This document shows positions 2,075 through 54,012 of a DNA stretch of 64,000 bases, one piece after another; position 1 is the stretch's first letter, and each line of letters begins with the position of its first letter. This DNA comes from Ureibacillus acetophenoni (GTDB lineage: Bacteria; Bacillota; Bacilli; Bacillales_A; Planococcaceae), in assembly GCF_900220965.1 (NCBI RefSeq), contig NZ_OBQC01000009.1, forward strand, positions 62,001 through 126,000, given 5' to 3'. The notes below the pieces were generated by a model. The model was not told the DNA's origin. It saw nothing but the letters and a program-made list of their open reading frames with translations, and ran no database searches. A program made the translations under genes and the position numbers.

Positions 2075-2292
2075 GTGACTTCGGGACAAAATAAGAAGAG
2101 TCCTGAATAAAGTGTCTCGTAAAAGTGATTCACGGGACAAAAAAAGAAGAATCCCGAAGAAAGTGTCTCGTAGAATGGATTTAAGGGACAAAAAAGAAGA
2201 ATCCTAGAGGAAAGTGTCTCGTAGAAGCGATTTACGGGACATAAAAAGCAGAATCTCTGAGAAAGTGTCTCGTTGAAACGACTTACATATCA
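2075..2292. repeat. Tandem 51-bp hairpin repeat array (TGTCTCGTA family)
   Basis: Four clear units begin at 2112, 2163, 2214 and 2265, exactly 51 bp apart, with a degenerate unit near 2075. Each unit has a left arm like TGTCTCGTA, a loop of about nine bases and a right arm like TACGGGACA, followed by an A/G-rich spacer. The unit at 2214-2241 pairs over all nine positions if one G-T is allowed. The array lies between the start of the germination operon and the brnQ terminator. The short minus-strand reading frame across it (2006-2191) is just translated repeat. Confidence 0.85.
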
Positions 2293-2361
2293 AAAAATGA
2301 AGAATTATTGGAAAATGCCTAGTAAGAAATCTAGCGCAAAGTTAATCTAAATGATGGTATC

Positions 2362-2401
2362 AAAAAAATACCACGGCCAAAACACGAAATTGACTGTGGT
2401 A
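2362..2401 (-). terminator. Rho-independent terminator of brnQ
   Basis: On the minus strand an imperfect 12-bp stem (arms TACCACAGTCAA and TTGGCCGTGGTA) is followed by a run of seven T. It lies just downstream of the brnQ stop codon. Confidence 0.85.
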
Positions 2402-2411
2402 CTTTTCTAAT

Positions 2412-3728
2412 TTATTTCATTACTTCATCTACCGAAGATTTACCTCTTCCAATAACTGCCCCAATTATAACACCAGCTAATGCAGGCAATATCCATCCGA
2501 CTCCTTGATCGTAAAGTGGGATAAAACTCAGTGCATCGGATAATGATTTTCCTAGGAAAGTGACATTAATTGTTTCAATAATACTAAAAATCGCTGTTAA
2601 AATAATCGAAACTCGATAAACAGAAAGATTCACATATCGATTAAATATCCCTAATAAAATCAAAACAATTGCCAGTGGATAAATCATTCCTAATATAGGG
2701 ACGGAAATCGCCAAAATTTGATTTAAACCTAAGTTCGCTACTGCAAAACTAACAATTGCCGTAATTGTAGCCCACACTTTATAAGAAAAGACAGGGATAA
2801 GTTTTGAGAAATACTCACCACATGAAATAACTAAACTAATGGACACACATAAGCAAGCAACAGTAAACAATAATCCTAGAATTACAATACCTGCGGGTCC
2901 AAATAATTCATTCATTACAAGTGTCAGTACTTCAGCACCGTTGTCTAGTTGTTCAATAGAAGATACCGATGCACCTAAATACGTGAGTATACTATAAATG
3001 ACAGCTAATAAAACCCCTGCACCGAGCCCTGCAAGCAACATGTACTTTGAAAGTGCTGCATTATCTTTAATTCCTTTTGCGCGAATGGTATTCACAACGA
3101 CGATTCCATAAACAAGCGCGGCTAAAGCATCCATTGTTAAATATCCATCTAAAAATCCTTGGAAAAAGCCGTTTGATGTATATAGCTCAGTAGCTTGAGC
3201 GTATGGAGAAACTGGTGTGAAAATGGCTTTTACAAAAATAATAGCGATTAAAATTAATAAAATCGGTGTTAGCAGTTTGCCAAAACGGTCAACGAGCTTT
3301 GATGGCGATAAACTTAAAGCTAAAACAATTAAAAAGAAGATGACAGTATAAATGAATAGCATCATTGATCCGCCTTTTAAATGTTCAGGTAAAAAAGGGT
3401 TGATACTCATTTCATAAGCAACTGTTCCTGCTCTTGGAATTGCTAAGCCAGGCCCGATTGACAGATAGATTAGCACTGGGAAAATGATTGCAAACAGTGG
3501 GTGAACTCGAGTAGCCAATGTATTAAAACTTCCGGCTTTCCCAATTGCAATGACCCCTAAAATTGGTAATCCTACGGCAGTGATAACAAAACCAATTAGG
3601 GAAATCCACATTTCTTCACCAGCTGAGTTCCCTAAAAATGCAGGGAAGATCAAGTTTCCAGCGCCAAAGAACATGGAAAATAACATAAAGATAATAAATA
3701 ATAATTCTTGATTTTTAAGTTTAGGCAT
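2412..3728 (-). CDS. brnQ: Branched-chain amino acid:cation symporter BrnQ
   Basis: This 438-residue integral membrane protein belongs to the LIVCS family (BrnQ), which takes up leucine, isoleucine and valine with a cation. The N-terminus has the family segment MFFGAGNLIFPAFLG, and about twelve hydrophobic segments follow. Length is typical. The ATG start is preceded by an AAGGAGAA ribosome binding site. The gene stands alone with its own terminator, downstream of the 21-bp repeat region. In the family, expression usually follows amino acid supply (CodY), but I could not identify a CodY box by eye. Confidence 0.93.
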   Translation of the reverse strand: MPKLKNQELLFIIFMLFSMFFGAGNLIFPAFLGNSAGEEMWISLIGFVITAVGLPILGVIAIGKAGSFNTLATRVHPLFAIIFPVLIYLSIGPGLAIPRAGTVAYEMSINPFLPEHLKGGSMMLFIYTVIFFLIVLALSLSPSKLVDRFGKLLTPILLILIAIIFVKAIFTPVSPYAQATELYTSNGFFQGFLDGYLTMDALAALVYGIVVVNTIRAKGIKDNAALSKYMLLAGLGAGVLLAVIYSILTYLGASVSSIEQLDNGAEVLTLVMNELFGPAGIVILGLLFTVACLCVSISLVISCGEYFSKLIPVFSYKVWATITAIVSFAVANLGLNQILAISVPILGMIYPLAIVLILLGIFNRYVNLSVYRVSIILTAIFSIIETINVTFLGKSLSDALSFIPLYDQGVGWILPALAGVIIGAVIGRGKSSVDEVMK

Positions 3729-3822
3729 TACATTCTCCTTAATAAATAAAAATATCTTTGTAGTATAACAATTTCGATGGATGGTGCCTATATAATGTGA
3801 AAAAGAAGTAATATTAAAAATA

Positions 3823-3893
3823 GTTGCTCATTTTGAGGTTGAAGTTGCTCAATCCCACCCAAAAGATGCTCAATAAGGCATAAAAGTTGCTCA
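3823..3893. repeat. 21-bp tandem repeat (TTGCTCA core)
   Basis: The core TGCTCA occurs at 3825, 3846, 3867 and 3888, exactly 21 bp apart, with diverged bases between. It lies in the 365-bp stretch between dtpT and brnQ (3729-4093), which otherwise holds only the dtpT terminator. Unlike the 52-bp arrays the cores are direct repeats without an inverted partner. Confidence 0.75.
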
Positions 3894-4029
3894 TATATTC
3901 CGCGTACTAAACCAAAACTCGCTTAAATCATATTCCTAAAAATTTTAATCCCCTTATAGTTTGCTTAATTCTTCAAATTCTATTTCTGTCCCCCAATAAT
4001 TCTTTTATGTGAAAGAACCATCTGCCATC

Positions 4030-4070
4030 TCAAAATAAATAAGGCCGACCAGTTTAATCTGGTTGACCTT
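4030..4070 (-). terminator. Rho-independent terminator of the peptide transporter gene
   Basis: A 12-bp stem with two G-T pairs (AAGGTCAACCAG against CTGGTCGGCCTT on the minus strand) is followed by a T-rich tract. It lies just past the stop codon at 4094. Confidence 0.75.
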
Positions 4071-4093
4071 AATTGGTAACTATGAATTATTAA

Positions 4094-5491
4094 CTAACTC
4101 TTTTCCATTGTCTTTTCATCGTCCCCAAGCATTTTCATAAGCTTTTTAGAAAGTGCAATAAGGATGAAGCCAAGTACGATTACAGCAGCACCAATGACTG
4201 CAAATACTTCAAAGTATCCTAAACTTGAAGTGAATGCACCTAACTGACCAGCAACGATGTTAGCTACGAACGAGCTTGCCATCCAAACGGCCATTAGTAA
4301 AGAAGCGAATTTAACAGGCGCATACTTACTTACAAATGATAAACCAACAGGTGATAAGAATAACTCACCGACTGTATGGAAGAAATAAGTAAACACAATA
4401 AACATAATATTTGCTTTCATTGCAATGTTATTTTCATCACTACCTGTTTGCATAATAGCAAATAGTAATACGATAAATCCAACACCTAACAGAATCATCC
4501 CGATCCCCATTTTCACTGGAACTGGAAGATCCCCACGTTTTGAATTTGATAATTTAACCCAAAGCATAGAAACGAGTGGAGCTAAAAGGATGATAAATAA
4601 TGGGTTAACAGACTGGAACCAAGATGTTGGAATTTCCCAACCAAAAATTGTACGGTCAATAAATTTGTCCGTATAAATACTTAGGGCACCACCAGCTTGT
4701 TCAAACCCTGCCCAGAAGAACACAACAAATGCAGCTAAAATGAAAATAACTTTTGTTCGGTTTTTCTCTTTCTTCGTTAACTTTTGTTTTTCTTGAACAC
4801 CTGTAGTTGAAACTTTAGGTTTACCTACTGTTTTTTTACCAATATCACCTAAGAAACGGTTACCTAGAGCATTAAACAAGATTTGTCCTATGATCATACC
4901 GATTGCAGAGGCAAGGAAACCATATTTATAACCATATTCAATAACGCCGTTAACATCTACTGCAAACCATTTATCTGTAATGGCACCAATTAGTAACGGA
5001 GCGAAGAATGCACCAGTATTGATACCCATATAGAAAATCGTAAACGCAGCATCGCGGCGTTTATCATTTGGTCCGTATAATTCACCGACGATTGTAGAGA
5101 TATTTGGTTTGAAGAATCCATTACCAATAATAAGTAATCCTAAACCAATGTAAACAGCGGTAAAACTTTGATGACTAAATAGTACAATATTCCCTAATGC
5201 CATCGTAATACCACCGATAGTGATCGCCAATCGTTGTCCTAAGAATCTATCAGAAAGATAACCACCTATTAACGGGGTAAAATAAACTGCTCCGGTAAAG
5301 AATCCGTATAACATAAGAGCCGTTCCTTCGTCCATTCCTAAACCACCACTTATTAATGATTTAGTTAAGTAAAGGATTAAAATTGCTCTCATTCCATAAT
5401 AACTAAAGCGCTCCCACATTTCCGTCATGAATAACAGATATAATCCAGGAGGGTGTTTCTTCGTTTGTTGATCTAAAGTTGTACTATTCAT
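4094..5491 (-). CDS. dtpT: POT/PTR-family proton-coupled di-/tripeptide transporter (DtpT-like)
   Basis: This 465-residue member of the major facilitator superfamily, POT branch, imports di- and tripeptides with protons. The N-terminal segment EMWERFSYYGMRAIL is the family hallmark (ExxERFxYYG), and GFFKPNIS follows in the next signature region. About 12-14 transmembrane segments are present, with a charged cytoplasmic linker around residues 225-245. The ATG is preceded by GAGGG. It is monocistronic with its own terminator. The symbol follows the family; the exact peptide preference cannot be read from sequence. Confidence 0.93.
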   Translation of the reverse strand: MNSTTLDQQTKKHPPGLYLLFMTEMWERFSYYGMRAILILYLTKSLISGGLGMDEGTALMLYGFFTGAVYFTPLIGGYLSDRFLGQRLAITIGGITMALGNIVLFSHQSFTAVYIGLGLLIIGNGFFKPNISTIVGELYGPNDKRRDAAFTIFYMGINTGAFFAPLLIGAITDKWFAVDVNGVIEYGYKYGFLASAIGMIIGQILFNALGNRFLGDIGKKTVGKPKVSTTGVQEKQKLTKKEKNRTKVIFILAAFVVFFWAGFEQAGGALSIYTDKFIDRTIFGWEIPTSWFQSVNPLFIILLAPLVSMLWVKLSNSKRGDLPVPVKMGIGMILLGVGFIVLLFAIMQTGSDENNIAMKANIMFIVFTYFFHTVGELFLSPVGLSFVSKYAPVKFASLLMAVWMASSFVANIVAGQLGAFTSSLGYFEVFAVIGAAVIVLGFILIALSKKLMKMLGDDEKTMEKS

Positions 5492-5861
5492 TGAAATCCC
5501 TCTAACTATTTTAAGTTATATTAGCATAACAATAGTAATGGAATTTAAAATAAATAGTCAATGAATATATAAAAGAATCATTCTTATGAAAACTATTAAT
5601 CTTTGTTATTTTCTATGAATTCTCGCTTCATTATTGATTGAAAGGGTTTTATTTTCTCAATAATTAAGGAAGATAACCAACATGACCAGATATTTCTATA
5701 TCAATATTATGGAACTCTTAGTTAGTTATGTTTTTATTAAATCACCATCAAATTTTATTGTTCGATATTATATTAATATATTTATTTGCGCGATAAATTT
5801 GGACGTTGAATCCAACATTTCCATCAATAGTTTGTTGACAATTTTTTTAAAAAATACTTAC
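5492..5861. other. Intergenic region, no gene recognised
   Basis: This AT-rich stretch separates the peptide transporter from the small RNA. It must contain the minus-strand dtpT promoter. A TTGACA at 5834-5839 lies upstream of the RNA promoter but has no well-spaced -10. An open frame at 5682-5924 has no good ribosome binding site, no recognisable protein features, and runs into the RNA, so I do not call it. Confidence 0.6.
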
Positions 5862-5890
5862 TTGCACATAGAAATAGAATCTCGTAATAT
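5862..5890 (+). promoter_or_regulatory. Sigma-A promoter of the 6S RNA candidate
   Basis: TTGCAC (5862-5867), a 17-bp spacer and TAATAT (5885-5890) predict a start near A5897. That is exactly where the 5' closing arm of the structured RNA begins. Confidence 0.7.
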
Positions 5891-5896
5891 AACATT

Positions 5897-6084
5897 AAAG
5901 CTGCGTTGTACGTACGAATATTAAGTTTTAACCTTTAAGCTGTAAAAGGGAGTTTTAGATCGAAGATGGATTGGCGGGCATCACCCAATACGCGTGATGA
6001 TATACAGGAAATCTTTTGCGAACACCCACTTGGAGGAGTGGTGGTTTAAAACTTTCTATAATAATTACGGCAAAGCGGCTTTCC
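5897..6084 (+). ncRNA. ssrS: Probable 6S RNA (RNA polymerase-binding regulatory RNA)
   Basis: A promoter-terminator bounded transcript of about 190 nt with no reading frame. Its ends pair: AAAGCTGCGTTGT (5897-5909) with GGCAAAGCGGCTTT (6069-6082), about 12 of 13 positions counting wobble. A second long-range stem joins AAGTTTTAACC near 5923-5933 with GGTTTAAAACTT near 6046-6057, and a hairpin with CCACT/AGTGG arms sits on the 3' side. Length, closing stem, large interior and 3' hairpin are those of 6S RNA, which sequesters the housekeeping holoenzyme. The main alternative is a leader RNA for the downstream YtaF-like gene. I see no yybP-ykoY (Mn2+) riboswitch core, and a terminator lies between the RNA and the gene. 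Confidence 0.65.
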
Positions 6085-6100
6085 TACATAGTAGATACAA

Positions 6101-6134
6101 AGCACTCTGAAATCATTCAGGGTGCTTTTTTTTG
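6101..6134 (+). terminator. Rho-independent terminator of the 6S RNA candidate
   Basis: Stem AGCACTCTGA against TCAGGGTGCT with one G-T pair, followed by eight T. It ends the upstream RNA 80 bp before the next coding start. Confidence 0.85.
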
Positions 6135-6215
6135 TATTTTGCAGTTTAAATTAAATGTCATTATGTAACCCTCGTTCATAACATATGGAGGGAACTCGTT
6201 TGAAAGGAGTAAATA

Positions 6216-6857
6216 ATGAGTGATTTAATTGCGATGTTTCTTTTAGGATTTGCAGTAAGTCTCGATAGTTTTACTGTAGGTTTAACTTATGGAATGCGTA
6301 AAATTAGAATTCCAATGAAATCATTAATTATTATTTCATCATGTACCTTTATCTTATTGTTATTAGCAATGGGATTCGGTTCGTTTATTGAATTATTTAT
6401 TTCCTACGAAGCTGGGGAAACTATTGGTGGGATCATCCTTATAGGAATTGGGATATGGGTTCTTTATCAATTTTTCACATCACAAATTGAAAAACCTACT
6501 AATGAAAATAAAAAAGATGTCAAAATCATTGAAATTGAATTTAGATCAATATCTGTTGTAATAAAAATATTAAAACGGCCGATGGAAGCTGATTTTGATC
6601 AATCTGGGGTTATTAGTGGGAAAGAAGCGCTTTTTTTAGGGCTTGCTTTATCATTAGATTCTTTCGGTGCAGGAATTGGTGCCGCATTAATTGACTTGCC
6701 ACCCATCTTATTTTCAATTGTTATAACTGTTTCTAGTACTTTATTTGTAATAGCTGGCATTAATATTGGGAGAATATTTAGAAATGTTCACTGGATGAAA
6801 AGTCTAACATTTTTACCGGGGATCGTTTTAATATTAATCGGTTTAATTAAGATTTAA
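6216..6857 (+). CDS. ytaF: YtaF-like sporulation membrane protein (MntP/DUF204 superfamily) with EF-hand-like loop
   Basis: This 213-residue protein has two homologous halves of three membrane segments, each carrying the SLDSF motif (residues 15-19 and 146-150). That places it with YtaF and, more distantly, MntP-type Mn2+ exporters and the CadD/LysE-like fold. Between the halves, residues 126-137 (DFDQSGVISGKE) match a canonical 12-residue EF-hand loop at positions 1, 3, 5, 6, 8 and 12. GAAAGGAG precedes the ATG. In B. subtilis ytaF sits near mutM/coaE; here it stands next to a Ca2+-type P-ATPase. YtaF is called a sporulation protein by family; the transported ion is unproven. Confidence 0.82.
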   Translation: MSDLIAMFLLGFAVSLDSFTVGLTYGMRKIRIPMKSLIIISSCTFILLLLAMGFGSFIELFISYEAGETIGGIILIGIGIWVLYQFFTSQIEKPTNENKKDVKIIEIEFRSISVVIKILKRPMEADFDQSGVISGKEALFLGLALSLDSFGAGIGAALIDLPPILFSIVITVSSTLFVIAGINIGRIFRNVHWMKSLTFLPGIVLILIGLIKI

Positions 6858-6870
6858 CATACAAATCAAG

Positions 6871-6904
6871 GACGTTAATCAACTTATAGGATTAACGTTT
6901 TTTG
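6871..6904 (+). terminator. Rho-independent terminator after ytaF
   Basis: Stem ACGTTAATC against GATTAACGT followed by a T run, 15 bp past the stop codon. The remaining 250 bp to the next gene is AT-rich, with no further element recognised. Confidence 0.8.
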
Positions 6905-7161
6905 ATGGGAAAATGAGAGTTCTATACCAGTAATCCCTCCCAACTTCATATCTACTATTCCCTCTACGATATGAAATAGAATTTATATATTTTAAATGTG
7001 AATTTAATATTAAATTAAATCTAGTTTTTAAAAATTATCATCATTTAATTAGTATATTTCTCAGATTTCAACCATAAATTTCATTATATTGAATGATCAT
7101 CTTGTGATATAGCTTCATCGCTTAAAGTAAATATCTTTCAATAGAACAGGAGGGGTAGTAA

Positions 7162-9759: not shown

Positions 9760-9766
9760 ACGCAGT

Positions 9767-14077: not shown

Positions 14078-14290
14078 TTCAGTTAATGTACGTAAAACTC
14101 CCCCCTTAAGATTCAATAGATCATAAAGATAGGTGGTAGAAAACGGACACTAACAATCCGATTGGTTGCAGACTAAAAACGCCACGTCCTGTGGCAACGT
14201 CTGCATGACCCACATCCTGTGGGCCCCAACTAGCCATCAGATGAATACAGGGATGCCCACCTGATGGAAGTTTCGCTTTATGAAACCATT
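14078..14290. repeat. Dispersed structured element, copy 1
   Basis: This block shares many segments in the same order with 26575-26755: AAGATTCAATAG, CGCCTGCATGACCCA-like, TCCTGTGGG, CCATCAGA and AGATGGAAGTTTC. It contains three hairpins: GCCAC/GTGGC around 14181-14195, CCCACA/TGTGGG around 14209-14223, and CCATCAG/CTGATGG around 14234-14267. On the minus strand it lies in the leader region of the YdjI-like gene; on the plus strand it is upstream of the FemAB-like gene. The rest of 14045-14555 is AT-rich with no other element recognised. Confidence 0.7.
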
Positions 14291-16339: not shown

Positions 16340-16970
16340 TCCAATTACTTATTGGTGAAGTAGCGAAGGTAACATAGATCGTCTCTATGTTACCATTTAT
16401 TTGAAAATGAAGTGGGAAAGGTAACGTATGAGGCTTCTATGTGACTGTTTATCTGGAAATAAAGTAAAAAAAGGTAACATAGGCGACTTCTATATGACCA
16501 ATCACTCGAAAATGAAGTAGTAAAGGTAACAAAGGTGGCTTCAATATAACTGTTGATTTGAAAAAGAAGCAGAAAAGGGAACATAGACCGCTTTTATGAG
16601 ACATTCAACTACAGAATGGAATAAACTGTCCCGAAAAGGGTTTTTATGAGACACTTCAACCACAGAAATGGAGTAAACTGTCCCGTAGAGGGCTTTTATG
16701 AGACACTTCAACCACAGAAATGGAGTAAACTGTCCCGTAGAGGGCTTTTATGAGACACTTCAACCACAGAAATAGATTAAACTGTCCCGTAGAGGGCTTT
16801 TATGAGACACTTCAACCACAGAAATGGAGTAAACTGTCCCGTAGAGGGCTTTTATGAGACACTTCAACCACAGAAATAGAGTAAACTGTCCCGTAGCGGG
16901 CTTCTACGGGACATCTCAACCACAAAAAGGAACAAACTGTCCCAGATGCCGCTTCTATGAGACTTCCTCC
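16340..16970. repeat. Tandem 52-bp hairpin array with two stem families
   Basis: Twelve units start at 16368, 16420, 16473, 16525, 16577, 16627, 16679, 16731, 16783, 16835, 16887 and 16939. Spacing is 52 bp with deviations of one or two. The first five have GGTAACATAG-like left arms; the rest have TGTCCCGTA. The units at 16368 (arms GGTAACATAG and CTATGTTACC) and 16887 (TGTCCCGTA and TACGGGACA) pair perfectly. The spacer in the second family is TTCAACCACAGAAATGGAG-like. The array fills the space between the convergent ypcP and C39-like genes. Reading frames here are translated repeat. Confidence 0.9.
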
Positions 16971-17000
16971 AACAGTTTATATTGAAATTGTCTCATAGAC

Positions 17001-18299: not shown

Positions 18300-18628
18300 G
18301 TCTCTTTAATGGACAAAACGGATGGAAAAGGCACGTGAAATGTCCATTATGAGGGCTTTAATAGACAAAACGAGTGGAAATTATGTTCAAATTGTTCATT
18401 ATAAAGGGTTTAATGGACAAAACGGATGGAAAAGGCACGTGAAATGTCCATTATGAGGGCTTTAATAGACAAAACGAGTGGAAATTATATTCAAATTGTT
18501 CATTATAGAGGGTTTAATGGACAAAAGGGAAGGGAGAAGCAGGCGAAATGTCCATTATAAGGATAATAATGGACAATACGACCTAAAAATTTGGCCAAAC
18601 TGTCCATTATCACCAAAATCCGAAGCTA
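18300..18628. repeat. Tandem 52-bp hairpin array (TGTCCATTA family) with 104-bp doublet
   Basis: Left arms TGTCCATTAT or TGTTCATTAT start at 18341, 18393, 18445, 18497, 18549 and 18601, exactly 52 bp apart; right arms are TAATGGACA or TAATAGACA. The unit at 18549 (TGTCCATTAT against ATAATGGACA) pairs perfectly. Two unit types alternate, so 18300-18403 and 18404-18507 are near-identical 104-bp copies. The array lies between convergent genes. Confidence 0.9.
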
Positions 18629-23453: not shown

Positions 23454-23492
23454 CTATATATAGGTTCTGTGAAAGCCAAGTAAATCGCTAAT

Positions 23493-23513
23493 GTGCCAGG
23501 TTCATCCTGGCAC
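23493..23513 (+). promoter_or_regulatory. Hairpin in the fadE leader
   Basis: A perfect 8-bp stem (GTGCCAGG against CCTGGCAC) with a five-base loop ends eight bases before the fadE ribosome binding site. There is no T run, so it is probably an mRNA stability or processing structure rather than a terminator. Confidence 0.55.
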
Positions 23514-23538
23514 ACAAACTAAGGGGAGGAAATTTGTT

Positions 23539-26574: not shown

Positions 26575-26755
26575 TTCGTATAACCCCACCTCAAGATTCA
26601 ATAGCTGGAGTTAACGAACGCAAACACGACGATTTAGTTGCAAGTTAAAACACCACGTTTTGCCTCAACGCCTGCATGACCCATGTCCTGTGGGCCTCAA
26701 CTAACCATCAGAAGGAAAAGTGATCCCTACAGATGGAAGTTTCACTCTATTTCCT
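26575..26755. repeat. Dispersed structured element, copy 2
   Basis: This is the second copy of the element at 14078-14290, in the same orientation. It keeps AAGATTCAATAG, CCTGCATGACCCA, TCCTGTGGGCC and AGATGGAAGTTTC in order but has lost pairing in the first hairpin. CCATC/GATGG and CCCAtg/TGTGGG stems remain. It sits directly upstream of yusF. Confidence 0.7.
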
Positions 26756-27630: not shown

Positions 27631-27796
27631 CTCTTATAGAGAGAGGCGGAGGGAAGTGCCCTATGAAGCCCGGCAACCATCATAAATGTGAAAAGGTGCC
27701 AAATCACTCAAAGTACTTACTTTGAAAGATAAGAGAAGGCAAATAGATTTTACTGTGTAAATTATCCCTTCTACTTATCAAAGTGGAAGGGTTTTT
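27631..27796 (+). promoter_or_regulatory. S-box (SAM-I) riboswitch with terminator
   Basis: CTCTTAT at 27631 opens P1 and pairs with ATAAGAG near 27729-27735. Between them are the conserved GAGGCGGAGGGA, GCCC, AGCCCGGCAACC and AAGGTGCCAA blocks of the SAM-I aptamer. A terminator (CCCTTCTACTT against AAGTGGAAGGG, then T run) ends at 27796. A TATAAT at 27619-27624 is the likely -10. High SAM should end transcription before metNIQ. Confidence 0.95.
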
Positions 27797-37754: not shown

Positions 37755-38880
37755 ATTGTGGTTGATAAAGGACAAAAGGGAAGGGCATTTAGGTGGAAGG
37801 GTCTTTTATAAGGTTGATAAAGGACGAAAGGGATGGTAATTTAGGTGGAAGTGTCTTTTATAAGGTTGATAAAGGACAAAAGGGAAGGGAATTTAGGTGG
37901 AAGTGTCTTTTATAAGGTTGATAAAGGACAAAAGGGATTGTAATTTAGGTGGGAATGTCTTTTATAGGGTTGATAAAGGACAAAAGGGACGGTAATTTAG
38001 GTGGAAGTGTCTTTTATAGGGCTTGTAAAGGACAAAAGGGATTGTAATTTAGGTGGAAGTGTCTTTTATAAAGTTGATAAAGGACAAAAGGGGTAGTAAT
38101 TTAGATGGAAGTGTCTTTTATAAGGTTGATAAAGGACGAAAGGGATGGTAATTTAGGTGGAAGTGTCTTTTATAGGGCTTCTAAAGGACAAAAGAGATTG
38201 TAATTTAGGTGCTAGTGTCTTTTATAAGGTTGATAAAGGAAGAAAGGGATAGTAATTTAGATGGAAGTGTCTTTTATGAGGTTGATAAAGGACGAAAGGG
38301 ATGGTAATTTAGGTGGAAGTGTATTTTATAGGGCCCCTAAAGGACAAAAATGGTGGCAATTTAGTTGGGAGTGTCTTTTATAGGGCTTGTAAAGGACGAA
38401 AGAGAAGTCAAATGGAAATGTCTTTAATAAGTGGATGAAGGCGAATATAGGAAGAAATTCAATAGGAGTTGGTCTTCATTAGAGGTGATAAGAACCATTT
38501 TGGCATCAATTTCTGTAAGAAATGGTCTTGATAAGGTAGATGAAGCCCACTTTGATATGAAATTCGAATATAAATGGTCTTGATTAGTTTGATGAGAACC
38601 AGTTTGGCATGAAATTCTTTGAGAATGGTCTTTATAAGGTAAATGAAGAACATTTTGAGATGAAATTCGTAGAGGAATGGTCCTGATAATGTCAATGAAT
38701 GACATATTGGAAAGGAATTCAATTAGAAATGTCTTTCATGAGGCCGATGAAGGACATTTGGAGACGAAATTCGATCAGAAATGTCTTTCATAAGGTAGAT
38801 GAAGCCCATGTTGAAATGAAATTCGACAGAATAGTCATTCAAGAGGAAGTTAAAGCCGTTGTCATTAAGAACTTCATCCA
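37755..38880. repeat. Large tandem 52-bp hairpin array with three stem families
   Basis: Left arms start at 37800, 37852, 37904, 37956, 38008, 38060, 38112, 38164, 38216, 38268, 38320 and 38372 (all 52 bp apart), then 38419, 38470, 38523, 38575, 38626, 38678, 38730 and 38782 (47-53 bp apart), with a decayed unit near 38832. The first family pairs TGTCTTTTAT with ATAAAGGACA. The middle one (38470-38690) pairs TGGTCTTGAT-like with GATGAGAACCA-like arms. The last has TGTCTTTCAT and ATGAAGGACA. Reading frames here (38424-38896) are translated repeat. Confidence 0.92.
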
Positions 38881-45651: not shown

Positions 45652-46472
45652 TGGAATTCTTTTTATTAGCAATTATTGCACTCTGTTCAGGGATTATAGG
45701 TGCCCTAGTAGGCTTAGGCGGGGGAGTCATTTTAGTTCCTGCTACGCTCTTTATAGGACTATCACTCGGATTTATTCCAGATTTAACACCACAATCTGTC
45801 GTAGGACTTTCAGTTATCATGATGATTTTCACAGGTTTGTCTTCCACATTATCTTATATGAAATCAAAAACGGTAGATTATAAAAGTGGGCTTATTTTTT
45901 TCATTGGTAGTATACCAGGTACGATGTTTGGCGCTTGGGTCAATCAATTTTTAGATTTACCATCTTTTAATCTATACTTTGGTATTTTGTTAATAGTTTT
46001 ATCAACATTGTTATTGGTTAGAGATAAACTTAAACCAGTCAATTGGTTCGTAGAAAATGGAACGAAAAAGCAATATATCGATAGTTCTGGGAAAGAATAT
46101 ATTTATGGTTATCCAATTTGGTTTGCGATTTTACTAACATTTGTTGTAGGCTTTGCTTCAGGTTTATTTGGAATTGGCGGGGGATCAATGATTGTTCCAG
46201 CAATGCTGTTACTATTCCGTTTCCCACCTCACGTAGCGGTGGCAACGTCAATGTTTTTAGTCTTCCTATCTTCATTAGTTAACTCTGCAAGTCACATCGC
46301 ATTAGGAAATGTTCCGTGGATCTATACAATACCAATCATTATTGGGGCATATGTTGGTGCAAAAATTGGTGCTTCCTTAAATAAAAAGATGAAATCAGAA
46401 ACGCTTATTTTTGCTTTACGAATCATTTTATTATTACTTGGTATCCGATCTATTATTGATGGGTTATTCTAA
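45651..46472 (+). CDS. yunE: YunE-like TauE/SafE-family membrane protein
   Basis: A 273-residue member of the TauE/SafE (DUF81) family, with about eight membrane segments in two halves. The repeated GxGGGxxxVPA motif is visible twice: GLGGGVILVPATL and GIGGGSMIVPAMLL. The family is thought to move sulfur-containing or organic anions; the ion here is unknown. It starts inside the yunF stop (TAATG), so it is translationally coupled. Confidence 0.9.
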   Translation: MEFFLLAIIALCSGIIGALVGLGGGVILVPATLFIGLSLGFIPDLTPQSVVGLSVIMMIFTGLSSTLSYMKSKTVDYKSGLIFFIGSIPGTMFGAWVNQFLDLPSFNLYFGILLIVLSTLLLVRDKLKPVNWFVENGTKKQYIDSSGKEYIYGYPIWFAILLTFVVGFASGLFGIGGGSMIVPAMLLLFRFPPHVAVATSMFLVFLSSLVNSASHIALGNVPWIYTIPIIIGAYVGAKIGASLNKKMKSETLIFALRIILLLLGIRSIIDGLF

Positions 46473-46509
46473 ATTCATGTTTTGATTTTTTTGAAAGAAG
46501 GTGGCGTGC

Positions 46510-47871: not shown

Positions 47872-47929
47872 GTAATCAACCTAAAACTTTGAACAAATTT
47901 CACGCAAAAATTGATTGGAGCTTTACTAC

Positions 47930-49033
47930 ATGAGACTTATATCACTCGAGGTACTTCAACCTGGGATGGTCATAGCAAAAACAATATGGAATGAAGCATA
48001 TCGACCATTACTTCAAAAAGATGTTGTCGTATCACAGGGTATTATTGAGCGATTAAAACAATTGAATATAAAGTATGTGTACATTGACGACAAAATCTCA
48101 AATGGGATTGAAGTACATGAGTCAATTCCAATTGAAGTTAGAATGGCTGCTATAAAGAAAATAACAGAGTCCTTCCACAAGTTAAAAGGAGTTGAAGGAA
48201 AGAAAGCCTCTTATGTTCTAGACCAACAGTCAGGTGAAATAGGGAAACTTATTGATGGCTTGTTAGAATCTATTTTAAAAAGTACAGAAATGTTAACGAT
48301 ACTAACTGATTCATACATTTATGATGAGTACTTATATCAGCATTCATTTCAAGTTACTTTATATTCCCTTGCCATTGCAAAAGAGTTAGGTTTAACTTAT
48401 GACGAAATGAAACTCATTGGAACAGGAGCCATTTTACACGACGTTGGAAAAATACAAATACCTAGTACTGTTTTATTTAAACCAGGACGTTTAACAGATG
48501 AAGAGTTTGAATTGATAAAACAACATACAACATTTGGATTTGATATTTTAAGAAACTTACATTCCATTTCTTTATTAGTAGCACATTGTGCTTTTCAGCA
48601 TCACGAAAGACTTGATGGAAGTGGTTACCCAAGAGGTCTAACGGAAAAAGACATCCATCCATATGCTAAAATTATTGCTGTTGCAGACGTTTTCGACGCT
48701 ATTACTTCTGATCGAGTATACAGAGACCGAATGCTACCCGCACAAGGAATAGAAATAATCGAATCTGGTAGTGGAAAGATATTCGATTCAAAAGTAGTCG
48801 AAGCCTTTAAGCGAAGTGTCGTACACTATCCAAATGGAACAATTGTGTTGTTATCGGATGGTAGAAGAGGTGTGGTCGCAAAGCAAAACCTACAAGACGC
48901 AGCGCACCCAGTCATTCGTATTTTTGAAGAAAACAATGAAATACTTAGGTCTACTTATATTTTGAACTTAGAAGAACACCTACATATTGCTATTGAAAAG
49001 ATTGAAACAGATTACTTGGCGCATGCCGAATAA
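47930..49033 (+). CDS. HD-GYP domain protein (putative cyclic-di-GMP phosphodiesterase)
   Basis: A 367-residue protein. The N-terminal part (about 1-110) resembles DUF3391 and related sensor regions. The HD-GYP domain follows: QHSFQVTLYSLAIAKELG, AILHDVGKIQIPS, HHERLDGSGYPRGL and VADVFDAITSDR. All metal and GYP residues are present, so it may hydrolyse cyclic-di-GMP. ATG 47930 follows TTGGAG by nine bases; an upstream TTG at 47915 overlaps it. In B. subtilis yunC occupies this position instead. The signal is unknown. Confidence 0.88.
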   Translation: MRLISLEVLQPGMVIAKTIWNEAYRPLLQKDVVVSQGIIERLKQLNIKYVYIDDKISNGIEVHESIPIEVRMAAIKKITESFHKLKGVEGKKASYVLDQQSGEIGKLIDGLLESILKSTEMLTILTDSYIYDEYLYQHSFQVTLYSLAIAKELGLTYDEMKLIGTGAILHDVGKIQIPSTVLFKPGRLTDEEFELIKQHTTFGFDILRNLHSISLLVAHCAFQHHERLDGSGYPRGLTEKDIHPYAKIIAVADVFDAITSDRVYRDRMLPAQGIEIIESGSGKIFDSKVVEAFKRSVVHYPNGTIVLLSDGRRGVVAKQNLQDAAHPVIRIFEENNEILRSTYILNLEEHLHIAIEKIETDYLAHAE

Positions 49034-49035
49034 CA

Positions 49036-49077
49036 ATCTTCTCCTATTCATAAATTACAAGAATAGGAGGAGATTTT
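49036..49077 (+). terminator. Terminator-like hairpin that also contains the yunB ribosome binding site
   Basis: ATCTTCTCCTATTC (49036-49049) pairs with GAATAGGAGGAGAT (49061-49074) over 14 positions with one wobble, followed by six T. The 3' arm contains AGGAGG, which stands seven bases before the yunB TTG. So the same structure could end upstream transcription and hide the yunB site. Confidence 0.75.
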
Positions 49078-49854
49078 TTGTTTTCTCGTAAACCGAACGT
49101 TATGTTTTCCCGTGGAAGAAAAAGAAACTTTCATGCGAAGAAATCCGGAAAGTCTAACAAATTAGCCCTATTCCTTTTAAGCTTCATTGCATGTATTATA
49201 TTATTTTTATTTTATATAAATGATCGATTATTACCTACTTACTTAGACTATGCAGAAGTCCAAACTTATAAAATTGCATCACATGTAGTAACGCGAGCAA
49301 TCAGTGCTAAACAGATTATGAATGTACATGAAATTATTGAATCAGAGCCAACAAATTCGAATATCACGAAGTTTAACACAGAAATTATTAACAAGGAAAG
49401 AGCTGAAATTGTTGCTTTAGTCAAACTACAACTAGAAGAAGCTGAAAAAGGAGACTTAAACCATCTCCCGGAATTAGATAATGTACAATATGATGTTGGG
49501 AGTATGGAAGCTGGGGATGGGATTGTATTTTTTGTTCCATTAGGCCAAGCGCTAAATTTACCGATTCTCGGAAATTTAGGACCAAAAATACCGATCCGAT
49601 TCCATATTATCGGTAATGTAAGTAGTAGCATCGTTTCTGATATTACAGAATTTGGGATTAACAATGCGAAAGTGGAAGTAGGTATTCAAATAAAAGTAAA
49701 TGTTCAAATTATCGTACCTTTTGCTAGTAAAACAGCGACTGTGGAGCAATATATTCCTGTTGCAATAGGAATTGTGCAAAGTCCAGTACCGCATATTTGG
49801 TCTGGAGGAGATAACCAACCATCCATAGAAGTACCAGTGGAGCTACCTCAATAA
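49078..49854 (+). CDS. yunB: YunB: sporulation protein
   Basis: A 258-residue YunB family protein. A basic N-terminus (about 1-28) leads to one membrane helix (about 28-46, LALFLLSFIACIILFLFYI), and the rest lies outside. In B. subtilis it is under SigE and needed for full sporulation. The start is TTG 49078, seven bases after AGGAGG; ATG 49102 is the alternative. Its ribosome binding site is inside a hairpin. Confidence 0.87.
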   Translation: MFSRKPNVMFSRGRKRNFHAKKSGKSNKLALFLLSFIACIILFLFYINDRLLPTYLDYAEVQTYKIASHVVTRAISAKQIMNVHEIIESEPTNSNITKFNTEIINKERAEIVALVKLQLEEAEKGDLNHLPELDNVQYDVGSMEAGDGIVFFVPLGQALNLPILGNLGPKIPIRFHIIGNVSSSIVSDITEFGINNAKVEVGIQIKVNVQIIVPFASKTATVEQYIPVAIGIVQSPVPHIWSGGDNQPSIEVPVELPQ

Positions 49855-49865
49855 GGTAAAGAATA

Positions 49866-49907
49866 TTTATCGGGTATTAGGGGATGTTCATCCCCTAATG
49901 CCCGATA
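49866..49907 (+). other. Long perfect-type hairpin after yunB
   Basis: ATCGGGTATTAGGGGATG and CATCCCCTAATGCCCGAT form an approximately 18-bp stem with a very short loop and one mismatch. There is no T run behind it, so it is either a weak terminator, a bidirectional one, or an mRNA 3' end. Confidence 0.7.
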
Positions 49908-50002
49908 AGGTACGTTAAAAATAATTCCCTAAATATTAAGACATTTATAGTACAATGAATGTAAGTTTATTGTTACAATAGTATTTATATGATAAATTGA
50001 CT

Positions 50003-50152
50003 ACAGATGCTTGAACTTCATTCTAAGACTCATACTTCAAATAATTGGTAGTATGCAAACTCATCTGTAAAGTAGTGGCGTAACCCCTACTAAATGAAGT
50101 TAGGTAAACTGGCAGAATACGAAATTACTATTCGCGTTGCCAAATTACTCTA
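50003..50152 (+). promoter_or_regulatory. Candidate structured leader of lipA with competing stems
   Basis: AACTTCATT (50014-50022) can pair perfectly with AATGAAGTT (50093-50101), enclosing CATACT/AGTATG and AGTAG/CTACT hairpins. ACAGATG (50003-50009) can instead pair with CATCTGT (50062-50068). These two cannot form together without a pseudoknot. A further hairpin uses GGCA/TGCC and GAATA/TATTC (50111-50141). No T-box or known riboswitch core was recognised. The rest of 49908-50234 is AT-rich. Confidence 0.55.
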
Positions 50153-50234
50153 GCACTCTGTTTAACAGCTAAGAAATCTGACGACTGTCGCAACTAAACT
50201 TGTGGCATTAGATGTAGAATAGGGGAGAAAAACG

Positions 50235-51140
50235 ATGACTGTTAAAAAAGATGAAATTCTTCGTAAACCAGAATGGTTGAAAATAAAATTAAACACAAAT
50301 GATGAATATAAAGGCTTAAAGAGATTAATGCGTGAAAAAAATCTGCATACCGTTTGTGAGGAAGCTCGTTGCCCAAATATTCACGAATGTTGGGGTGAGC
50401 GTAGAACTGCGACAATGATGATTCTTGGTGCTGTATGTACTCGAGCTTGTCGTTTCTGCGCGGTTAAAACAGGTTTACCAAATGAGTTAGACACTGCTGA
50501 GCCAGAACGAGTAGCAGATTCAGTGGAAATTATGAATTTAAAACACGTTGTTATTACAATGGTAGCACGTGACGATTTAAAAGATGGTGGAGCTGGCATT
50601 TTAGCAGAAACAATCCGTGCTATTCGTCGTAAATCTCCTCAAACATCTGTAGAAGTTTTACCTTCTGATTTAGGCGGTGTTGAGGAAAATTTACAAATGG
50701 TTATGGATGCAAAACCAGACATTTTAAATCATAATATCGAAACTGTTCGTCGATTAACTCCAAGAGTTCGTGCTCGTGCAAAATACGATCGTTCATTGGA
50801 ATTTTTAAGACGTGCAAAAGAAATGCAACCAGAGATTCCAACGAAATCTTCATTAATGATTGGTCTAGGTGAAACTTGGGACGAAATTTTAGAAGTTATG
50901 GATGATTTACGTGCAAACGATGTGGATATTATGACAATTGGTCAATATTTACAACCAACAAAAAAACACCTTCCTGTTAAAAAATATTACACACCAATTG
51001 AATTTGGTAAGTTACGCAAAATTGCTATGGATAAAGGATTTAAACATTGTCAAGCAGGTCCTTTAGTACGTAGTAGTTATCATGCGGACGAACAAGTAAA
51101 TGAAGCAACGAAAAATAGACAACTTCAATTTGAACGTTAA
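50235..51140 (+). CDS. lipA: Lipoyl synthase
   Basis: A 301-residue radical SAM enzyme that inserts two sulfurs into octanoyl groups on lipoyl domains. Both cluster motifs are present: the auxiliary cluster Cys41, Cys46 and Cys52 ([12 protein letters not shown]) and the radical SAM motif CTRACRFC (Cys68, Cys72, Cys75). The C-terminal RSSYHADEQ has the conserved RSS serine. GGGGAG precedes the ATG. A candidate structured leader lies upstream. GcvH in this window is one natural client. Confidence 0.97.
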
Positions 51141-51173
51141 TAAGTAGTGCGGCTGAAGAAGGGGGATTACCAA

Positions 51174-51527
51174 GTGATTATCGCAGATGGCTATGCGTAT
51201 GAAATAATCGAAGATGTACGTGATGGTTTTCAAGAAGACGTATTCTTAGCACGCTACTCTGATGTTTTAGCTAAATATGATTACATTGTCGGCGATTGGG
51301 GATATGGTCAGTTACGAATGAAAGGCTTTTTCGATGACCGTAACCAAAAATCAACATTTGAAACAAAAATTAGTTCATTTGAAGATTATTTGTATGAATA
51401 CTGTAATTTTGGCTGTGCTTATTTCATTCTTAAAAAAATTGGAAAAGCACCCCGTCAAGTAGAAGTACCTTTGAAAGAGGAAAATAATGACGGTGCAGAA
51501 GAGATAGAACAACAAGAACAAATATAA
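51174..51527 (+). CDS. yutD: YutD-family DUF1027 protein
   Basis: A 117-residue protein of the DUF1027/YutD family. The conserved core is YDYIVGDWGYGQLRMKGFF and YLYEYCNFGCAYFIL. GTG 51174 is chosen because AAGGGGGA lies before it and the product then starts like B. subtilis YutD; the frame is open to 51147. It follows lipA by 33 bp. The function is unknown. Confidence 0.88.
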   Translation: MIIADGYAYEIIEDVRDGFQEDVFLARYSDVLAKYDYIVGDWGYGQLRMKGFFDDRNQKSTFETKISSFEDYLYEYCNFGCAYFILKKIGKAPRQVEVPLKEENNDGAEEIEQQEQI

Positions 51528-51531
51528 CGTG

Positions 51532-51571
51532 AAAAGGACCATCTCATAGTTTTGAGATTGGTCCTTTTATA
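51532..51571. terminator. Bidirectional terminator between yutD and yutC
   Basis: AAAAGGACCATCTCA and TGAGATTGGTCCTTTT form a long stem with A and T runs on both sides. Confidence 0.9.
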
Positions 51572-51838
51572 TTACGATAATAATTCTGTTAAATACTCGC
51601 GTAAATCTTCTGCTTCTTCTTCGGTTTTATTGTAAACATATTCTAAATAGCCTGGTTCATCTAAGTCATCAGCACCAATAATAGCAAATCGACTAGATTG
51701 CATATCTAGCACAAGTACTTTCCCAAAGAATCGTTTCGATTGTACAATTGCCAAATCATATCGTATTAATTTACCTGTAAAACTTACAAATCTAGTTTTT
51801 GTATCTTCTGTGTCATCATATAAGAAAAAGCGTTCCAT
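51572..51838 (-). CDS. yutC: YutC-like DUF3055 protein
   Basis: An 88-residue acidic protein of the DUF3055 (SAV0927) family. It begins MERFFLYDDTEDTKTRFVSF and has the central KVLVLDMQSSRFAIIG segment. It has no membrane helix and no catalytic motif I recognise. GGAGG precedes the ATG. Its position beside yutD matches B. subtilis, where yutC lies in the same place. The function is unknown. Confidence 0.85.
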   Translation of the reverse strand: MERFFLYDDTEDTKTRFVSFTGKLIRYDLAIVQSKRFFGKVLVLDMQSSRFAIIGADDLDEPGYLEYVYNKTEEEAEDLREYLTELLS

Positions 51839-51927
51839 ATTGTTTTATTCCTCCCAATTCCTAAAGATATGGTACTATAAAAAAGAAACGACTATCAACT
51901 TAATTGATTGAATGGGGGCAACATGAC

Positions 51928-52380
51928 ATGTATTTTGTCGATCGAAATAAAATTACACTTACATTAAATCACTTAGAAGAAATCTTAAATCTATTTAAAG
52001 AGTCTAATGACTGGTTAAATAATGATGTATCAAAACTTGCACTACACAGAATCGGACACAATACGATTGAGTCCTTAATGGATGTTGGTAATTTAATTAT
52101 TGATGGATTCATTATGAGAGACCCAGGAAGTTATGAGGATATTATTGATATATTAGTGGATGAAAAAGTAATTACACCTGATATGGACCAACCTCTTAAA
52201 GAAGTAGTTGGGCTTCGTAAAATGCTAGTAAGGGAATTTATTTCAGTAGATAATGAATTGCTATTAAAAGTATTAAATGATAATGTTGAAACACTTAAAA
52301 AGTTCCCTGGCCATGTAAGAAACTATTTAGAAAATGAGTTAGGACCAGTTTCAGCTTTTTTACCGGAGAATCATGAATGA
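51928..52380 (+). CDS. yutE: YutE-like DUF86/HepT-fold protein with a degenerate active-site motif
   Basis: A 150-residue all-helical HEPN protein of the DUF86/HepT family. The family segment DVGNLIIDGFIMRDPGSYEDIIDIL is clear. The HepT RNase/acceptor motif R-x4-H-x-Y should lie in GLRKMLVREFISVDNELL; there the His is Arg and the Tyr is Phe. No MntA-type nucleotidyltransferase is adjacent. ATG 51928 follows GGGGG; the frame is open to 51904. Its last bases overlap yutF (ATGA). A toxin role is therefore unlikely; the function is unknown. Confidence 0.85.
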   Translation: MYFVDRNKITLTLNHLEEILNLFKESNDWLNNDVSKLALHRIGHNTIESLMDVGNLIIDGFIMRDPGSYEDIIDILVDEKVITPDMDQPLKEVVGLRKMLVREFISVDNELLLKVLNDNVETLKKFPGHVRNYLENELGPVSAFLPENHE

Positions 52381-53144
52381 AAACGTATAATGCATATTGT
52401 TTTGATTTAGATGGTACGGTTTATAGAGGAAAAGAAGGTATAGAATCTGCTGTTCGATTTGTTCATCGATTACAGGAAAAAGGATTAGAATACTATTTTA
52501 TAACAAACAATTCTTCGAAGACGACAACTCAATTGCAACACGCTTTAAGAGATGTTGGTATAGAGACTGAGGAGTTTAGAATCTATTCCAGTGCCATTAC
52601 GACAGCAAAGTTCATCTCACAAAACTATAAAGATGCGAAAGTAAATATGATCGGTTCTGAAGGGTTAGAAACAGCTTTAAAAGAAGAGGGAATATCAGTT
52701 ACCGATGATTTACACCCAGATGTTGTAGTCATGGGAATTGATCGAACGGTAGATTATATGAAACTTGCCCGAGCAAGCGCGGCGATACAAAATGGAGCAA
52801 AACTCATTGGTACTAATAAAGACATCAAATTCCCAACTGAGTACGGTTTCTTACCGGGAAACGGTTCCTTTGTTAGTTTAGTTGCGAATGTAGCGGGTGT
52901 TGAGCCCCTTTATGTAGGCAAGCCTTCACCTGTCATGTTAGAAGTCATCCAAGAAGAATACGGATACGGAAAAGAAGACATGGTTATGATTGGTGACAAT
53001 TATGATACGGATATTCTGTGTGGTATTCATTTTGGGTGTGATACAATTCATGTCAATACGGGTGTGACAAGTACAGAAGTAGTTATGGAAAAAGAAGCAC
53101 AGCCGACGTATTGTTATGAGAATTTAGATCAGGTAGAACTATAG
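52377..53144 (+). CDS. yutF: YutF: NagD-type HAD phosphatase
   Basis: A 255-residue HAD subfamily IIA phosphatase. The nucleophile motif is CFDLDGTVYRG, motif II is FITNNSS, motif III is the Lys of VGKPSP and motif IV is MIGDNYDTDI. It resembles NagD and B. subtilis YutF, which act on small phosphate esters such as sugar phosphates. The ATGA overlap with yutE shows translational coupling. Confidence 0.92.
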   Translation: MKTYNAYCFDLDGTVYRGKEGIESAVRFVHRLQEKGLEYYFITNNSSKTTTQLQHALRDVGIETEEFRIYSSAITTAKFISQNYKDAKVNMIGSEGLETALKEEGISVTDDLHPDVVVMGIDRTVDYMKLARASAAIQNGAKLIGTNKDIKFPTEYGFLPGNGSFVSLVANVAGVEPLYVGKPSPVMLEVIQEEYGYGKEDMVMIGDNYDTDILCGIHFGCDTIHVNTGVTSTEVVMEKEAQPTYCYENLDQVEL

Positions 53145-53151
53145 GGAATGC

Positions 53152-53184
53152 GCGCGCGTACAACTTCGGTTGTGCGTTTTTTTA
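53152..53184 (+). terminator. Rho-independent terminator of yutF
   Basis: GCGCGTACAAC and GTTGTGCG form a stem with a TTCG tetraloop, followed by seven T. Confidence 0.9.
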
Positions 53185-53204
53185 TTATGGATTTAAAGGG
53201 GGCT

Positions 53205-54012
53205 AGCGCGCTTGTCCAATAGTCGGGGGATAAATAGACGTTTGGGTATAATTTATGCTTTGTTATGTCCATTATAGGGGTATAAAGGACATTTGGATGC
53301 GATATCTAATTTGTTATGTCCATTATAGGGGGTATAAAGGACATTTGGATGCGATATCTCATTTGTTATGTCCATTATAGAGGAGATAAAAGACACTAGG
53401 ATGCGATATCTCATTTGTTATGTCCATTATAGGGGATATAAAGGACATTTGGATGCGATATCTCATTTGTTATGTCCATTATAGAGGGTATAAAGGACAT
53501 TTGGATGCGATATCTAATTTGTTATGTCCATTATAGGGGATATAAAGGACATTTGGATGCGAATTATTATTAGTGTTGTCTTTTATAGGGGATATAAAAG
53601 ACATTAGGATGTGAATTATTATTAGTGTTGTCTTTTATAAGGGGTATAAAAGACATTTGAACCCGATTTATTATTTGTTATGTCCATTATAGGGCTGATA
53701 AAAGACACTCCGATGGGATTTTCACTTTCAAATGTCCATTATCGACCTTATCAAGACCAATTTCATCAGAATCTCATCACAAACTGGTCCTGATCGACCT
53801 TATCAAGACCAATTTCATCAGAATCTCATCACAAACTGGTCCTGATTATCCTTATCAAAACCAATTTATCGGAATCCCTGCACAAACTGGTCCTGATCGA
53901 CCTTATCAGAACCAATTTCATCGGAATCTCATCACAAACTGGTTCTGATCGACCTTATCAAAACCAATTTCATCAGAATCTCATCACAAACTGGTCCTGA
54001 TTGACATTATCG
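53205..54012. repeat. Tandem 52-bp hairpin array that changes stem sequence along its length
   Basis: Left arms start at 53266, 53317, 53369, 53421, 53473, 53525, 53577, 53629, 53681, 53733, 53785, 53837, 53888, 53940 and 53992. Spacing is 52 bp, or 51 at two steps. The arms are TGTCCATTATA with TATAAAGGACA up to 53525, TGTCTTTTATA at 53577 and 53629, TGTCCATTAT again at 53681 and 53733, then TGGTCCTGAT with ATCAAGACCA from 53785. Register is kept across each change. The array lies between convergent yutF and yuzB. Confidence 0.93.

Follow-up and report, generated by a model that had tools for sequence, protein, structure and literature searches.

Miniature inverted-repeat transposable elements (MITEs), such as bcr1, RUP and NEMIS, are short inverted-repeat elements without a gene and are dispersed as single copies. 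An overview in PMC3733652 gives their length as 70–300 bp and describes repetitive extragenic palindromes (REPs) as imperfect intergenic palindromes of 20–40 bp, which are present many times per genome in several sequence types and form clusters called bacterial interspersed mosaic elements (BIMEs). According to PMC8481266, where LrpC is also discussed, RemA protects AT-rich 7-bp direct repeats separated by 3-bp gaps, and wrapping of the DNA was proposed. Here, a 64,000-nucleotide stretch of the Ureibacillus acetophenoni genome (contig NZ_OBQC01000009.1, positions 62,001–126,000, hereafter the window) was analysed, in which five intergenic sites carry tandem arrays of imperfect palindromes. 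The repeat unit of these satellite-like arrays is 51–52 bp long, and its length is kept far more strictly than its sequence. We tentatively favour the view that the arrays, as double-stranded DNA, offer a helically phased scaffold to an oligomeric protein that would wrap or bridge DNA.

The arrays resemble REPs, BIMEs and the REP doublets (REPINs) that go with REP-associated tyrosine transposases (RAYTs) in being imperfect palindromes of 20–40 bp at many intergenic sites. They differ in that the units with TGTC/GACA ends (class I) were found solely in head-to-tail arrays of fixed 51–52 bp period and not as singletons, and in that the arrays do not lie near RAYT-like genes. Neither of the REP tags GTAG and CGTC was seen by eye in the consensus, for which no systematic tag search was run. 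The short inverted repeats and the absence of a gene are shared with MITEs, whereas the restriction of class I to arrays separates this class from elements dispersed singly. Simple finders could mistake the alternation of a roughly 27-bp palindrome and a roughly 25-bp spacer for clustered regularly interspaced short palindromic repeats (CRISPR), and false calls of this kind are described in PMC5294841; however, neighbouring spacers are 76% identical here and not unique, and the palindromes vary. The arrays would probably mislead CRISPR finders as well as assemblers. The STAR elements of Staphylococcus are likewise intergenic direct repeats in arrays, but their signature TDTGTTGKGGCCCM gave two matches with two mismatches in the window against 2.1 expected, none of them in an array. 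With the phased DNA of LrpC and RemA the arrays have in common A/T tracts at the helical period, although that DNA is a promoter region, whereas the present arrays are intergenic, reach 28 units and contain inverted repeats. Among the best-ranked matches in the full-text literature, no description of such 51–52 bp arrays was encountered. The literature considered also included PMC2267715, PMC1590033 and PMC3940949, and part of a published table lists, for the genus Bacillus, the species B. anthracis, B. halodurans and B. subtilis.

Unit length is held more tightly than unit sequence

A sequence-only reading of the window had described five loci of tandem palindromes with a period of 52 bp in four and 51 bp in one, and the same five were recovered by Tandem Repeats Finder (TRF), some rows of which report the double period (Table 1). 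The proposed scheme of arms, loop and spacer was also upheld: each unit is composed of a 10-nt arm, a 7-nt loop and a second 10-nt arm (a 27-bp palindrome) followed by a spacer of 24–25 nt, and the units are arranged head-to-tail. For many units, a 12-bp stem closed by a 3-nt loop is an alternative reading. The sites turned out to hold more arrays than had been listed, as sites 2, 4 and 5 are composite.

Altogether 404 consecutive spacings were measured, 324 of which were 52 bp, 77 were 51 bp, two were 50 bp and one was 53 bp long (locus L148, a duplicate of L209, was left out of the spacing, edge, linkage and fold counts). The palindrome detector used last accepted 50–54 or 102–106 bp between units, but an open scan of distances from 40 to 65 gave the same peaks (183 at 52, 48 at 51 and at most two at any other distance), which shows that the fixed spacing does not stem from the detector. 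Between adjacent units, 11.6% of the positions in the palindrome and 24.4% of those in the spacer are different. Only 16 of the 404 spacings departed from the mode of their own array, against 3550 substitutions, which corresponds to a ratio of 1:222. In array-free intergenic DNA, local blastn pieces aligned between the own genome and Ureibacillus manganicus contained 190 gap openings and 1014 substitutions over 5511 positions (1:5.3). Length changes per substitution are therefore about 40-fold rarer in the arrays than in ordinary intergenic DNA. We regard this as the strongest evidence of constraint, although homogenisation within arrays may contribute to it, and it argues against recent duplication followed by free decay, an origin that would have refuted the sequence-only reading.

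A/T-rich tracts recur with the helical period

The period of 52 bp had been proposed to equal about five helical turns, and it behaves accordingly. In 29 oriented Ureibacillus arrays of period 52, the fifth harmonic of the A/T positions (52/5 = 10.4 bp) had a power of 40.8 and the next harmonic 7.0, and the corresponding values for 11 arrays of period 51 (51/5) were 33.5 and 3.9. At harmonic 5 the A/T steps had a coherence of 8.4, above the maximum of 6.45 obtained in 500 spacer shuffles. In 26 arrays of Neobacillus mesonae, which belong to other stem classes, harmonic 5 reached 0.67 compared with 0.23 after shuffling, and the other harmonics stayed near the shuffled values. Thus, harmonic 5 is dominant in Ureibacillus and is raised alone in N. 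mesonae, that is, the unit comprises whole turns with phased A/T as a scaffold would demand, while Bacillus sp. EB01 is less clear. Strong curvature was considered separately and rejected, since it was only modestly raised (medians of 1.16–1.28 for arrays and 1.09–1.12 for shuffled sequences) in a wedge model with base shuffles of single units as the null.

The arrays form a genome-wide family with hosts in several genera

The idea that the window shows part of a genome-wide family was borne out by many additional arrays. The own genome contains 460 exact tandem pairs of the form TGTC-N19-GACA-N23–26-repeat, against none with the reversed control, and a covariance model built from the window units had at least 144 matches in it among the best 150 of 5170 candidates scored. 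Among 80 named loci the same model had a single weak match (L019, E 0.018), therefore it is too narrow for the other classes. The tandem pattern was present in 13 of 25 genomes of the Ureibacillus-like genus (in one of these only once); the 236 genomes from 18 other genera of the family all lacked it. Among named hosts in the genus, 273 pairs were counted in U. manganicus, 75 in a strain filed as Lysinibacillus fusiformis S4 5007-2, 23 in U. chungkukjangi and one in U. xyleni; no pair was seen in the four remaining named genomes. Among further named genomes 13 of 38 were positive, belonging to Neobacillus, Cytobacillus, Bacillus and others, with 72 matches in N. mesonae, 62 in N. kokaensis, 37 in Cytobacillus eiseniae, 32 in Bacillus sp. 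EB01 and 23 in B. methanolicus. A second class, GGTAA-N17-TGCC (class II), was found in 10 of 41 genomes. Stem classes vary between species and the periods are nearly all 51–53. The known hosts are the Ureibacillus-like genus and named Bacillaceae genomes, and the family is larger than the one first described.

An open TRF scan of 76 control loci from relatives, in which coding repeats were still included, showed 52 bp to be the commonest period (9 of 49 repeats; the next was 21 with eight), with one more repeat at 51 and five at 101–105. Contiguous samples from five genomes, 1.9 Mb in all, contained 114 intergenic tandem repeats; the period was 51–53 in 76 of them and 102–104 in eight more. 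Many genome samples were positioned where matches were already known, including those of N. mesonae and EB01, in which class-I arrays were the commonest intergenic tandem repeat. Such arrays made up about 2% (22 arrays, 253 units) of 684 kb sampled from contigs pre-selected as known carriers. A looser first detector had flagged nine control regions, mostly non-repeats by eye.

A neutral satellite would grow by slippage and unequal crossing-over, keep its arms complementary by template switching and have no function. The homogenisation within arrays, the 104-bp higher-order repeats and the patchy presence among the genomes of the genus are in line with this explanation, but the roughly forty-fold shortage of length changes per substitution, the use of one period across very different stem classes and several genera, and the phased A/T positions speak against it, and we consider it unlikely.

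Base pairing is kept while stems change

The stems had been said to differ in sequence with their pairing kept, partly by matched changes. For 25 tandem pairs picked from the window, 90.6% of cells held the named base pairs, a level that none of 500 shuffles reached (73.0% after shuffling), and 16 of the 20 base pairs showed a change on both sides; both the pairing and the paired changes thus exceeded the shuffles, in agreement with that description. Sliding the partner by 1–3 columns reduced pairing to 35–49%. With one unit taken from each of 41 arrays, pairing was 77.0% compared with 68.7% in shuffles (again 0 of 500 reached it). The palindrome ends TGTC and GACA are paired in the consensus. 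The arms of the 25 tandem pairs pair equally well across the spacer (90.8%), and the local and across-spacer registers could not be separated (pairing support of 194 and 227, respectively, p 0.12), which is a point in favour of a neutral satellite. Template switching in quasi-palindromes is a mechanism able to keep arms complementary, consequently pairing alone is no proof of function.

Array edges and the possible amplification of a cassette

Edges were compared in the 35 arrays that have five or more units: a lone GACA arm stood at the left end in 12 of them and the opposite kind in two, and a lone TGTC arm at the right end in 18 and the opposite in one. These lone arms make GACA-spacer-TGTC the probable evolving cassette, whose joints would lie at the palindrome centre. 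The class changes inspected by eye, at 16577 and 53733 of the window and in L141, all fall in the loop. Linkage across the palindrome centre was lower than across the spacer centre in distance bins 1–8, 16–24 and 40–52, but it did not drop there in bins 8–16, 24–32 and 32–40; with three bins for and three not, a linkage break at palindrome centres was judged inconsistent and set aside.

These observations bear on an explanation in which a mini inverted-repeat element (GACA-arm, 25 bp, TGTC-arm) is gained and lost at palindrome centres through a recombinase, a transposase or a replication hairpin, the five turns serving the synapsis of its ends, without any gain for the host. The lone arms, the class changes in the loop and the three bins with lower linkage support it, as does the distribution of the Y1_Tnp domain outside the genus, where all 13 carriers had a match compared with 7 of 13 tested non-carriers (13 of 25 available). 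In contrast, the other three bins do not, and a mobile element would be expected to leave single class-I cassettes outside the arrays, of which no excess was found: 662 kb contained no class-I palindrome with a 7-nt loop and two cassettes with a 24–25-nt spacer. Within the genus, Y1_Tnp matches were lacking in 7 of 13 carriers (G235, G240, G243, G244, G248, G255 and G256), which include the heavy carriers G243 and G255, and were present in 8 of 12 non-carriers; moreover, arrays occurred within 6.3 kb around Y1_Tnp genes at only 2 of 20 loci. We regard amplification of such a cassette as unlikely.

The Y1_Tnp domain also covers IS200 transposases, and none of the hairpins around six RAYT-like genes was an array unit. 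On present evidence, RAYT-like transposases are not the agent, since heavy carriers of the genus have no Y1_Tnp gene and the arrays are not near such genes, and RAYT as a driver was rejected; the Y1_Tnp association outside the genus stands against this conclusion. Carriage by mobile DNA was also rejected, as array 4a, the only one tried, had no plasmid or phage similarity, and 37 viral contigs had one isolated match each, rated as chance by a rough estimate.

Strong hairpins resembling REP pairs were seen beside Y1_Tnp genes. In two Ureibacillus genomes they have the form GTTTGTGTAC-CAG-GTACACAAAC (L191:2913–2941 and L343:2613–2645), and in N. mesonae a 39-bp hairpin TGTCAGGCACC..GGTGCCTGACA (L328:3399–3437) starts with TGTC and ends with GACA.

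Array sites are conserved and arrays are oriented relative to replication

None of 87 arrays was inside a called gene (genes were called by a codon-score heuristic, and those lying mostly within an array were dropped before the count). In the syntenic blocks of G243 and G255, four arrays of other stem classes were found at window sites 2, 3 and 5, the U. manganicus arrays occupying sites 3 and 5 and those of G255 sites 2 and 3. The site 1 gap of U. manganicus contains 11.7 kb of additional DNA, in which a fifth array is located. Site 4 of U. manganicus has one degenerate half unit, and a clean empty site, on which a target-site duplication could be judged, was not seen in these blocks. Thus, the site is conserved while the sequence of the array is replaced between relatives. 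In G255, the gap corresponding to array 5 (near 1.277 Mb of G255:C1, L208) is filled, as judged by eye, by a transposase-like insertion with GCGCG hairpins at both ends and an apparent transposase gene.

Orientation was set by the G/C skew of the array, with array-free gaps as control for a bias shared with ordinary DNA. The 72 arrays counted exclude those with |skew| ≤0.1, those whose piece lacked a flanking gene and the whole EB01 set, as that sample has no net GC skew. The G-rich strand was the leading one, as judged by GC skew, in 67 of the 72 compared with 267 of 336 gaps (Fisher p 0.006), and in 78 of 88 arrays when those with |skew| ≤0.1 were included. Beside lagging-strand genes, the G-rich strand was leading in all six arrays but in only 11 of 29 gaps (p 0.008).

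For N. mesonae pieces, the leading strand was assigned by position, and class II was assigned to a strand by its motif. On this chromosome, 77 class II matches fall into 17 clusters, eight of which are minus below 2.5 Mb and nine plus from 3.1 to 4.9 Mb. For 16 clusters this sign fits the GC skew of the surrounding 20 kb, and the remaining cluster, near 2.32 Mb, agrees only with the neighbouring samples. Class I departs from this pattern in places, as at least two arrays below 2.5 Mb are plus by eye among the matches listed (to 3.6 Mb). On the presumed terminus side of this genome (L322–L326, 4.40–5.62 Mb) one array was found in 100 kb, compared with 47 in 700 kb elsewhere; since many other samples were placed at known matches, this depletion is only a lead.

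Both strands of the arrays fold alike

Hairpin arrays at the 3′-ends of transcripts could terminate transcription or protect mRNA, and hairpin clusters have been proposed as terminators in a passage of PMC8355165. In support of an RNA element, convergent gaps hold 30 of the 87 arrays, codirectional gaps 42 and divergent gaps 15, whereas the base, which includes short within-operon gaps, consists of 266 convergent, 1140 codirectional and 266 divergent gaps (16% convergent; p 2e-5). In our reading, the GGTAA..TGCC class has a recurring bulged A and a T.G wobble next to changing stems, seemingly on one strand, and the one example of it that was folded is stable on that strand only (z −3.2, against 0.9 on the other). 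Oriented G.U cells were also more numerous than A.C cells (318 and 156, respectively; 22 arrays went this way and 13 the other, with six ties). However, the purine-rich strand had the lower folding z in 43 of 88 arrays, that is, both strands fold alike, and the strand specificity hinted at by single folds and G.U counts was rejected. The 15 arrays between divergent genes, the orientation that follows replication beside lagging-strand genes and the exact unit length, which is not expected of terminators, point in the same direction. No Rfam 15 family reached its gathering score in the window arrays or at two N. mesonae loci, the best weak match near array 4 having 12.9 bits against a threshold of 40. 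An RNA element is accordingly improbable.

A proposed scaffold for a DNA-wrapping or DNA-bridging protein

The scaffold reading starts from what was observed, namely genome-wide occurrence, a fixed period, rare length changes, paired changes and phased A/T, together with the absence of single class-I units, intergenic placement and replichore polarity. A unit of five helical turns (51–52 bp) would place the inverted repeat and the A/T-rich tracts repeatedly on one face of the helix, where several copies of an oligomeric DNA-binding protein could load cooperatively and then wrap or bridge the DNA. Candidates are wrapping proteins such as LrpC or RemA, and also HBsu. Protein binding, condensation of the DNA and the marking of domain boundaries, as suggested in the sequence-only reading, are putative roles. 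The putative protein would read the phasing, and the polarity might, with less assurance, reflect coupling to replication or segregation.

Several points weigh against this reading. In Bacillus sp. EB01 harmonic 6 (0.44) was as strong as harmonic 5 (0.43), both being raised, and the curvature of only 26 of 87 consensus arrays reached the 95th percentile of shuffled units. Since all arrays may go back to a single ancestor, their phasing and their lengths are not independent observations. On the 41 arrays, the two measures of pairing least sensitive to relatedness were not significant (two-sided-change pairs 8 vs 6.9, reached by 109 of 500 shuffles; further pair types 26 vs 23.0, reached by 41 of 500). 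A G-rich leading strand is common in ordinary gaps too, 12 of the 25 genomes of the genus have no match to the tandem pattern, and the binding protein, its footprint and a phenotype are all hypothetical.

In a bolder form, which we consider unlikely, the arrays would be a bacterial counterpart of satellite chromatin: selection would keep the five-turn unit of replication-polarised intergenic arrays at its length because a dedicated protein polymerises along them, each 52 bp taking up one set of subunits, and the sequences of stems and spacers would turn over freely, the stem classes (TGTC/GACA, GGTAA/TGCC, CGCG and TGT-CCAAT) being interchangeable specificities. An element fixed in length but tolerant in sequence is unusual in bacteria; helical phasing is thus directly testable in vivo, which may reveal a chromosome-organising protein in Gram-positives.

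Arrays and neighbouring features of the window

Table 1. Palindrome arrays at the five sites of the window (positions are those of the window; TRF, Tandem Repeats Finder)
Array	Units	Position	Strand	Context	TRF repeat at the site (period)
1	TGTCTCGTA..TACGGGACA units, period 51	2076..2305	+ (G-rich strand)	flanked by two minus-strand genes	2082-2305 (51)
2a	GGTAACATAG class	16356..16603	.	convergent gap	16356-16943 (52)
2a, terminal unit	apparent chimera, 3′ arm of array 2b type	16577-16603			
2b	TGTCCCGTAG class, period 52, register shared with 2a	16627..16999	.	terminates in lone TGTC arm	
3	TGTCCATTA class, 104-bp higher-order repeat	18305..18610	+	convergent gap	18305-18576 (52)
4a	TGTCTTTTAT class, 12 units, spacing exactly 52 bp	37760..38402	+	codirectional gap	37760-38826 (52)
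4b	TGGTCTTGAT class, register of 4a carried on (spacings 52, one 51)	38470..38826	+		
5a	TGTCCATTAT / TGTCTTTTAT class, period 52	53259..53707	.	convergent gap	53259-54011 (52)
5b	TGGTCCTGAT class; unit at 53733 with 5′ arm of 5a and 3′ arm of 5b	53733..54018	.		

The orientation of sites 2 and 5 is unclear because their G/C skew is near zero (0.02) and only 0.04, respectively. As seen by eye, two stem classes are joined in register at each of these sites (GGTAAC to TGTCCC at site 2, TGTCC to TGGTCC at site 5) and the array of site 4 extends into a TGGTCT class; the class junctions at sites 2, 4 and 5 lose little or no register. Array 3 begins with a lone GACA arm and ends with a lone TGTC arm. 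Array 4a is located upstream of a sufC-like gene, with a gltD-like gene, so labelled from size and order only, on its other side.

Other features were also recognised in the window. Two copies, 74% identical, of the Bacillaceae-1 RNA region (RF01690) lie at 14142–14241 and 26613–26712, only the first of which reaches the Rfam threshold. The segment 5895–6085 is 6S RNA and 27631–27735 is an S-adenosylmethionine (SAM) riboswitch, while a strong hairpin, ATGTGCCAGG-TTCAT-CCTGGCACAC, is located at 23491–23515, at the start of an open reading frame of 609 amino acids.

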